DNA of 35,650 nucleotides, taken from contig JAAYEC010000009.1 in NCBI GenBank assembly GCA_012728915.1, positions 1-35,650 on the forward strand. The letters are read 5' to 3'. Positions within the stretch are counted from its first letter, which is position 1. The number at the start of each line of letters is the position of its first letter. Positions 6,104 through 33,190 of the stretch are shown piece by piece. The position numbers and the translations under genes were made by a program. The stretch is from Deltaproteobacteria bacterium. GTDB taxonomy: Bacteria > Desulfobacterota > Syntrophia > Syntrophales > UBA2192. Below the pieces are notes generated by a model, which was not told the origin of the DNA, made no database searches, and saw only the letters and a list, made by a program, of their open reading frames with translations.

Positions 6104-6180
6104 TGGTCGGGGTGGTCCGATTTGAACGGACGGCCCTCTGCTCCCAAAGCAGATGCGCTACCAGGCTGCGCCACACCCCG
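6104..6180 (-). tRNA. tRNA-Pro (anticodon TGG)
   Basis: The 77-base minus-strand sequence folds as a cloverleaf. The acceptor stem CGGGGTG pairs with CACCCCG, and the anticodon loop TTTGGGA carries anticodon TGG (proline, CCA and wobble codons). The T-arm includes GTTCAAATC. The discriminator A is followed by a genome-encoded CCA (6106-6104), so CCA need not be added after transcription. It sits between rdgB and tamA, preceded by the octamer-repeat hairpin at 6192-6283 and followed at once by an intrinsic terminator. Confidence 0.96.
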
Positions 6181-29673: not shown

Positions 29674-32196
<2,523 letters not shown>

Positions 32197-32206
32197 GGTT
32201 CCGCCT

Positions 32207-32233
32207 AAAAAAAACCCGGTAAGCCCTTACCGG
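32207..32233 (-). terminator. Intrinsic terminator between the M23 peptidase gene and secA
   Basis: On the minus strand CCGGTAAG (32233-32226) pairs perfectly with CTTACCGG (32223-32216), and after one G eight T follow (32214-32207). It lies 39 bases after the M23 stop and ten bases before the secA ATG. It could simply end the M23 transcript or act as an attenuator in a secA leader. A TATAGT -10-like box lies just upstream on the minus strand (32249-32244). Confidence 0.9.
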
Positions 32234-32272
32234 ATTTTCGGATACTATACCCTGTTTTTTCGCAAAAGGGAA

Positions 32273-33190
32273 TCAGGGCAGATACTTCCTGGGGTTGACA
32301 TAGACTCCATTGAGATTCACGGAATAGTGCAGGTGGGCCCCGGTGCTGCGGCCCGAGTTGCCGACATACCCGAGGACCTCCCCGCGCTTGACCATCTGTC
32401 CCTTGCTGACCGCGGAGCGGAAGAGGTGGGCATAGAGGGTGAAGATGCCCCTTCCGTGTTCGACCTTGATGAGAAGGCCCAGGTCCGGTCTCTTTTCCAC
32501 GTTGGCCACGATCCCGTCGGCCGGCGCCTGGATAGGGGCTCCGAGCTTCGCCGCAATGTCCATCCCCGAGTGAAATTCCCGCCGGCCGCCGAAGGGGTTG
32601 GCCCTGGGTCCGAACTCGGAGGTCACCCAGCCGGTGACGGGCCACAGGTTGGGCGTCACGGCGGCGATGGAGCGCTGAGCGCGCAGGAATTCCTGCAGCT
32701 CGGCAAGGCTTCGCTCGCGGGCGGACGCATCCTCCAGCAAACGGTCCATGTGCCGGTTGAGGCTGGTCAGCTTGTCGGCGCCGGTTTCCCCCGCCGGCAT
32801 CGGGCCGCCCACGCCGAGAGCCTGTTCCCGGGCAGGCGCCGTTTCCTTCCTGGATGCCTTGCGGGGCTTGCCGGCCAGATCCATCGCCATCGTGCGGATC
32901 TTTTCATCCACCTGTTTGAGCTCGGCCAGCTTCCGCTCGAAGAAGGTGATCTTCCCCTCGAGGGTGTCGATCTGCTCCTGCTGGGTGGATGTGAGCCGGC
33001 GCAGGTTGAAAAGTTCCATCTGCTCGAGTTTGATCGTCAGGTAATCGACGGCACAATAGCCGAGAAAACAGAACAGGGCGACCAACAAGGTTGTGGCGAG
33101 GCGGAAATGACGCGGTGTGGCGAGGAACTTCTTGACGGAGTCTTTCTTTTTATGAGGGATGATCAGGAGGGTGTAAAAATGCTTCGGCAT
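32273..33190 (-). CDS. Membrane-anchored M23 (LytM-type) peptidoglycan endopeptidase
   Basis: This 305-residue protein has a basic cytoplasmic N-terminus, one membrane segment (about 31-52) and a coiled coil (about 53-105). A low-complexity linker and second helical stretch (about 140-172) and a C-terminal LytM domain (about 180-305) follow. The zinc ligands and catalytic residues are complete: His207 and Asp211 (FHSGMD), His255 (YAHL), and His286/His288 (HLHY). It should therefore be an active endopeptidase cutting peptide cross-links, not a degenerate EnvC/NlpD-type activator. It resembles the MepM/M23 proteins often found beside secA in deltaproteobacteria. A promoter within a palindrome lies upstream and an intrinsic terminator downstream. 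Confidence 0.93.
   Translation of the reverse strand: MPKHFYTLLIIPHKKKDSVKKFLATPRHFRLATTLLVALFCFLGYCAVDYLTIKLEQMELFNLRRLTSTQQEQIDTLEGKITFFERKLAELKQVDEKIRTMAMDLAGKPRKASRKETAPAREQALGVGGPMPAGETGADKLTSLNRHMDRLLEDASARERSLAELQEFLRAQRSIAAVTPNLWPVTGWVTSEFGPRANPFGGRREFHSGMDIAAKLGAPIQAPADGIVANVEKRPDLGLLIKVEHGRGIFTLYAHLFRSAVSKGQMVKRGEVLGYVGNSGRSTGAHLHYSVNLNGVYVNPRKYLP

Follow-up and report, generated by a model that had tools for sequence, protein, structure and literature searches.

A conserved hairpin and U-run directly ahead of secA, a candidate leader attenuator in an order of Desulfobacterota

In a stretch of 35,650 nucleotides from a bacterium of the Syntrophales (the window), the Shine-Dalgarno sequence of secA is immediately preceded by a short hairpin and a run of uridines. 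Among 134 genomes of the same order, which we infer to be the Syntrophales, 120 carry a hairpin flush with a U-run at this place, and these carriers cover 17 of 21 families. We consider it moderately likely that the element is a terminator-only leader attenuator with partial or factor-controlled read-through. The initial annotation of the window had proposed an attenuator or a read-through element, and the order-wide conservation supports this as its likely nature.

The doorstep of secA lies on the minus strand and reads, from 32249 to 32194, TATAGT ATCCGAAAAT CCGGTAAGGGCTTACCGG G TTTTTTTT AGGCGGAACC ATG. The hairpin (32233-32216) has a 7-bp stem formed by the 5′ arm CCGGTAA (32227-32233) and the 3′ arm TTACCGG (32216-32222) around the loop GGGC (32223-32226), whose letters vary in relatives. 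Two arms of eight letters with 2 nt between them can be read from the sequence, and RNA folding turns them into this 7-bp stem with its GGGC loop; the stem reaches 12 bp once the flanking A's and part of the U-run are allowed to pair. A single G (32215) separates the stem from the eight U's (32207-32214), which are directly followed by the Shine-Dalgarno sequence AGGCGG (32201-32206), AACC and the ATG of secA (32196-32194). No promoter fits below the U-run because exactly ten bases (AGGCGGAACC) remain before the ATG, as the initial annotation had argued. Its description of a perfect terminator ten bases before the secA start is accurate in coordinates, letters and the ten-base gap, while the word perfect is too strong for a stem of modest strength with one G between it and the U-run.

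The hairpin together with its eight U's folds with a ΔG of -10.8 kcal/mol (z -2.5), a value equalled by 1 of 200 shuffles, and longer stretches of the window fold less specially (z -2.1 for 49 nt, -1.2 for 82 nt and -0.3 for 141 nt). The sequence features of an intrinsic terminator, a GC-rich hairpin with a U-run immediately after it, are found in the window and in the 118 relatives scored by script, where the gap of 0-2 nt between stem and U-run follows partly from the construction of the detector. The hairpin is absent from the list of a simple terminator scanner, probably because the stem was extended into the U-run there. A repeat origin was rejected since the stem pattern is unique in its own genome, with one other, imperfect site at up to two mismatches.

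Upstream of the hairpin, the -10-like hexamer TATAGT is present at 32244-32249, as the initial annotation had noted, and a weak -35-like TTCCCT (3 of 6) lies 17 bp from it at 32267-32272, with identical letters in five other members of the genus that were inspected. A promoter at this site, as suggested by its letters, would start the RNA 2-5 nt ahead of the CCGG arm. The genes on the minus strand follow the order carboxylase subunit, M23 peptidase, secA, argJ, rpsB and tsf. The secA frame (29674-32196) matches PF07517 (E 3e-132) and other SecA domains, and the upstream gene (32273-33190, TGA at 32275-32273) encodes an M23-family peptidase (PF01551, E 3.3e-30) whose translation, inspected by eye, shows an apparent membrane segment at the N-terminus. 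A domain search found PYC_OADA and biotin domains in the carboxylase subunit; argJ, rpsB and tsf were named from their translations by eye. A gap of 76 bases separates the stop of M23 (32273) from the start of secA (32196), and this stop codon is 39 nt ahead of the hairpin.

The sample of relatives was drawn as 149 genomes; secA was matched in 136 of them, and DNA ahead of it was available in 134 (not in G002 and G408). The script scored 118 of them, and G053 and G043 were added to reach the 120 carriers; counts of anatomy and context use the 118. Loci L030 and L086 were counted as carriers and L014 and L082 as lacking the element. The relatives are unevenly spread, with 37 of 133 genomes from one family and many assemblies in hundreds of contigs. 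The same detector scored 15 of 18 secA starts (18 of 30 secA starts could be placed) versus 1 of 18 argJ starts and 0 of 9 M23 starts, and with 120 carriers among 134 genomes the element is more than chance. The stem pattern is near-specific to secA, where 24 of its 46 rows in 60 genomes fall; a reversed control pattern gave 8 matches. Full-length SecA proteins outside the genus are 65-76% identical, and the stretch from the M23 gene to the hairpin looks by eye unalignable between families. The initial annotation had named a lack of conservation of the hairpin as a refutation and the spacing to secA as a check, and both hairpin and spacing are kept: in the 118 scored genomes the median distance from the end of the stem to the start codon is 20 nt (5-95% range, 18-27 nt).

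A wider spread of the element through the phylum was not seen in the loci inspected. A survey of the phylum with model R1 gave 66 rows in 46 of 297 genomes; among 30 loci inspected, four were at secA, all in the same order, and G343:C39 adjoins secA by coordinates. Of 80 named secA loci, one (L089, within the order) has a CCGG hairpin with a T-run and one (L088, also within the order) a decayed CCGG hairpin; no CCGG hairpin with a T-run was found at the other 78.

CCGG/CCGG arms are present in 113 of the 118 scored genomes and in 42 of 45 genera, enclosing 89 different inner sequences of 6-13 nt. The U-run is 5-10 long (nine in 49 genomes) and starts 0, 1 or 2 nt past the stem in 101, 11 and 6 genomes, respectively, 2 nt being the limit of the detector. 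Three of the five exceptions to the CCGG rule are stems that have been re-paired, to CCCGTAA/TTACGGG in G048 and to the CTGACC/GGTCGG type in G047 and G019; G027 has a different, longer stem, and G366 keeps the 5′ CCGG but has CGCCG before the U-run. In 38 aligned sequences, 97.8% of the pair cells hold standard pairs, and the observed covariation was reached by 0 of 500 shuffles. This MAFFT alignment left out L014, L082, L086 and L030 and misregistered L067 and L069, so that some two-sided changes there are not real; the re-pairings in G048, G047 and G019 were taken from the stem sequences directly. The conservation of the CCGG letters and of the pairing, with loop and spacing left free, fits an element of RNA more readily than a palindrome in DNA. 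A DNA-binding palindrome is disfavored because the CCGG arms lie anywhere from 6 to 13 nt apart and G-U pairs are tolerated. An A-run able to serve the opposite strand is found in 2 of 118 genomes.

The stems are fairly weak, with genus means averaging -9.2 kcal/mol. In 400 kb of a congener (G005, contig C1), 14 of 18 other terminator-like hairpins are stronger than the one at secA, two of the 18 being both strands of one site. Four of the 19 terminator-like sites in this sequence lie within 45 nt of a plausible start, and the gap at secA is the shortest; terminators near starts are thus uncommon but not unique to secA in the congener. The same sample (L168-L187) holds three more genes with a terminator-like hairpin and a T-run stopping 15-25 nt short of the start, which by eye encode a lipoprotein-like protein, a membrane protein and a dihydropteroate-synthase-like protein. 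In two loci of family f17 (L018 and L065), a second terminator-like hairpin stands directly upstream of the CCGG hairpin as a tandem.

The element is absent from 14 of the 134 genomes and is therefore not indispensable. In six of these the stop codon of the carboxylase gene lies 5-66 nt before secA, as if the element were lost when secA becomes a tightly packed member of an operon. The remaining losses comprise all four genomes of family f19, both of f6, one of f10 and one of f14, with decayed remnants in some; G041 retains a remnant hairpin without a U-run. A T-run above 5 never occurs in the last 60 nt before secA in any of the 14 hairpin-less genomes, indicating that the two parts of the element are kept or lost jointly.

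The gene upstream of the element changes among carriers. It is an M23 gene in 99 of the 118 scored genomes, a carboxylase gene in 11, all of which retain the hairpin, and neither in eight. In three of these eight the upstream DNA is too short to judge (15-115 nt), in one (G023) the 600 nt upstream hold no open frame of 70 codons, and in the other four (G035, G047, G019 and G009, from three genera and two families) secA is divergent from an EF-G-like gene, with 250-335 bp between the two starts. Searches with three of the four partial divergent proteins gave EF-G models with E-values no higher than 3.3e-126, the matches being below the whole-protein cut-offs as expected of fragments, and the gene in G019 was called EF-G-like by its likeness to that of G047. 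By eye, all four divergent loci have in the direction of secA a TTGACT or TTGACA, 16 nt and a TA.... hexamer, located 72-89 nt before the hairpin. As consensus matches, these sites score 13.0 in G009, 12.2 in G019 and 9.0 in G047; the site in G035 has a poor second hexamer and is not the top-scoring one. The order at these loci is, by sequence and with predicted promoters, promoter-like sequence, hairpin and secA, and if the sequence is a promoter, all secA transcripts there cross the hairpin. The divergent loci are the strongest single argument for a leader element and point to secA, and not the upstream gene, as its owner.

Promoter claims are limited to the named loci because two general measures were not decisive. 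The enrichment of -10-like sequences near the hairpin over 45 genera was not significant (difference 0.31, se 0.30), and a general -10 box at a fixed distance from the hairpin was rejected on this ground. The near-site promoter score exceeded that of shuffles modestly (5.86 vs 5.32, sd 0.34).

The attenuator reading can be put as a sequence of steps. A polymerase coming from a secA promoter, or reading through the upstream gene, would make the fairly weak CCGG hairpin and the long U-run; a share of the polymerases would stop just ahead of the ribosome-binding site and the rest would enter secA, and a set-point, or a factor acting on the stem or the polymerase, would fix the amount of secA mRNA. 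We infer termination in the cell, its partial nature and its regulation by a trans-acting factor from the sequence, and the conservation of the CCGG letters may point to a stem-reading protein. A fairly weak stem, a long U-run touching it and a near-fixed seat fit a 5′ regulatory terminator, a group reported to be weaker than other terminators (Naville and Gautheret 2010, PMC2965389). A point against attenuation is that the RNA of the window's genus, predicted to begin 2-5 nt before the hairpin, would be very short for a terminator. Another is that in some families the nearest -10-like sequence is only 0-3 nt from the hairpin, so close that the RNA might start within the 5′ arm.

The predicted start in the window's genus bears on the main rival of the attenuator reading, which we regard as unlikely. 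Here the hairpin would cap the mRNA against decay and the U-run would be a landing site for ribosomal protein S1, promoting ribosome loading without any termination. U-runs bind S1 and 5′ hairpins stabilize mRNA. In the window's genus, G007 and G016 (in G016 at a site that is not top-scoring), the RNA is predicted to start at the hairpin or immediately ahead of it, the window and many relatives have the U-run in direct contact with the Shine-Dalgarno sequence, and the position of the element relative to the start codon is tight, all of which would suit a stabilizer. However, a stabilizer needs no contact between stem and U-run, yet 101 of the 118 genomes have no base between them (within a detector limit of 2 nt), and the lack of T-runs above 5 in the hairpin-less genomes also speaks against this role. 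At the divergent loci, moreover, the promoter-like site 72-89 nt upstream would place the hairpin away from the 5′ end of the RNA.

Quite unlikely, in our judgement, is an insulator, in which a terminator of the upstream operon is nested in the secA promoter and secA RNA escapes it by starting inside the stem. Most hairpins (99 of 118) do follow an M23 gene, and the six genomes in which the carboxylase stop comes close to secA all lack the hairpin. In family f14, many members have a -10-like sequence approximately 3 nt before the CCGG, which places the start inside the 5′ arm. In contrast, the predicted start in the window's genus precedes the whole hairpin, the two tandem loci already have a second terminator-like hairpin a few bases upstream, and the element is kept in the four divergent genomes, where no co-directional gene was found upstream.

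The initial annotation had also considered a translation- or secretion-linked control through the M23 gene, and the relatives speak against it. The M23 stop codon is 35-402 nt from the hairpin (median 57), with none closer in all 99 cases measured. In an E. coli test system (PMC4824070), ribosomes at a stop codon no longer suppress the tR2 terminator beyond approximately 30 bp, so ribosomes ending M23 are unlikely to reach the hairpin. Among genomes with enough DNA ahead of secA, 16 keep the element without an M23 gene there, and in some of them a carboxylase gene or a divergent EF-G-like gene takes that place. The alternative pairing of the stem with the M23 3′ region that had been envisaged does exist in the window as 13-nt arms with 85% complementarity, but it is not above shuffled upstream DNA: within the window's genus the z-scores range from -0.85 to 0.41, and over 45 genera no pairing between the 100 nt upstream and the 3′ arm exceeded shuffles (mean z -0.13, se 0.13). 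An antiterminator from upstream RNA was rejected for want of a consistent excess over shuffled upstream DNA. SecM-style control, in which ribosomes on M23 decide whether the hairpin forms, has in its favor the apparent membrane segment of the protein encoded just upstream and the partial pairing in the window, and it is very improbable given the stop-to-hairpin distances, the swaps of the upstream gene, the lack of a consistent alternative pairing and an M23 C-terminus in the window that, by eye, shows no SecM arrest sequence.

Other leader types were considered as well. Short ATG frames occur upstream of the stem in three of the four divergent leaders, with no shared sequence seen and no relation to one another beyond, perhaps, a single genus; two genomes have a frame of this sort that stops 9 nt short of the stem or just inside it, so that a leader peptide may exist in single genomes. 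A riboswitch, T-box or other Rfam leader was not found at the secA leader. The sole Rfam match of the window at gathering score is a tRNA elsewhere (6107-6180, minus strand), no family reached the gathering score at 12 loci from relatives or Clostridia, and a relaxed threshold gave three weak matches below it.

Further hairpins were seen at other places. Seven of 21 Firmicutes loci among the named secA loci, all from Clostridia (L106, L114, L144, L149, L150, L160 and L165), have a GGAACC...GGTTCC-type hairpin just ahead of the secA Shine-Dalgarno sequence, with T-rich tracts of varying quality. By its letters, this hairpin looks like an unrelated, independent equivalent of the Syntrophales one. 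Three cases come from the same phylum as the window. In G302 (L196), a CCGGC...GCCGG-type hairpin and nine T's precede a start that is S-adenosylmethionine synthetase-like by translation, and this might be a metabolite attenuator. In G339 (L193), the ribosome-binding site of a NUDIX-like gene adjoins a CCGGTCTCTGACCGG hairpin with a long T-run, and a similar hairpin occurs in G121 (L195) on the opposite strand.

A more specific form of the attenuator reading is a long shot at present: feedback on secA by attenuation, in which a protein, possibly SecA or a dedicated RNA-binding factor, would read the nascent CCGG hairpin and set the read-through, with the Clostridia hairpin as an independent invention of the same device. 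If true, it would be a secretion-linked secA sensor in Syntrophales that works without an arrest peptide of the SecM type.

Well-studied bacteria cannot do without secA, and E. coli adjusts the level of secA to the demand for export by means of SecM; to our knowledge, the tuning of secA in other bacteria is largely open. We found no earlier description of this element in the open-licence papers searched. An order-wide element with near-fixed geometry offers a different and testable control point for secA, and its conservation suggests that these bacteria control secA by gating the polymerase at the doorstep of the gene. Like SecM, the hairpin would be an upstream cis element that sets secA expression. 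The two differ in that the SecM arrest peptide frees the Shine-Dalgarno sequence whereas the hairpin would act at transcription and independently of the upstream gene; no arrest peptide was recognized, and M23 is not a fixed upstream neighbor of secA, with 16 carriers lacking it. E. coli SecA also binds its own mRNA and represses its translation, which is likewise a candidate coupling of secA output to the SecA level near the start codon, although binding of the hairpin by SecA is only conjectured. The short-leader attenuator of B. subtilis pyrG, in which CTP-dependent slippage supplies the antiterminator, resembles the hairpin in having a terminator very near the transcription start and a short leader.

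The closest kind of element is the rimP-leader (RF01770), which Naville and Gautheret 2010 (PMC2965389) describe as a short terminator, 4-130 nt from its gene, that combines a U-stretch with conserved letters in the stem. It has no larger conserved element around it and no visible antiterminator in most species, it is tandem in some, and a stem-recognizing protein is proposed for it, a factor left unproven there. Common to both are a terminator only, conserved stem letters and occasional doubling. The rimP-leader stands before rimP-nusA-infB with a GGGc/gCCC stem, whereas the present hairpin stands before secA with a CCGGU/ACCGG stem, has a close, near-fixed spacing to the start codon and is seen in one order only. 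The covariance model of RF01770 gives 18.2 bits against a gathering score of 47. Judged by these features, the secA hairpin is of the same kind as the rimP-leader without being a member of that family, and it would be a clear-cut example of a terminator-only attenuator whose stem letters are conserved, the class to which the rimP-leader belongs.
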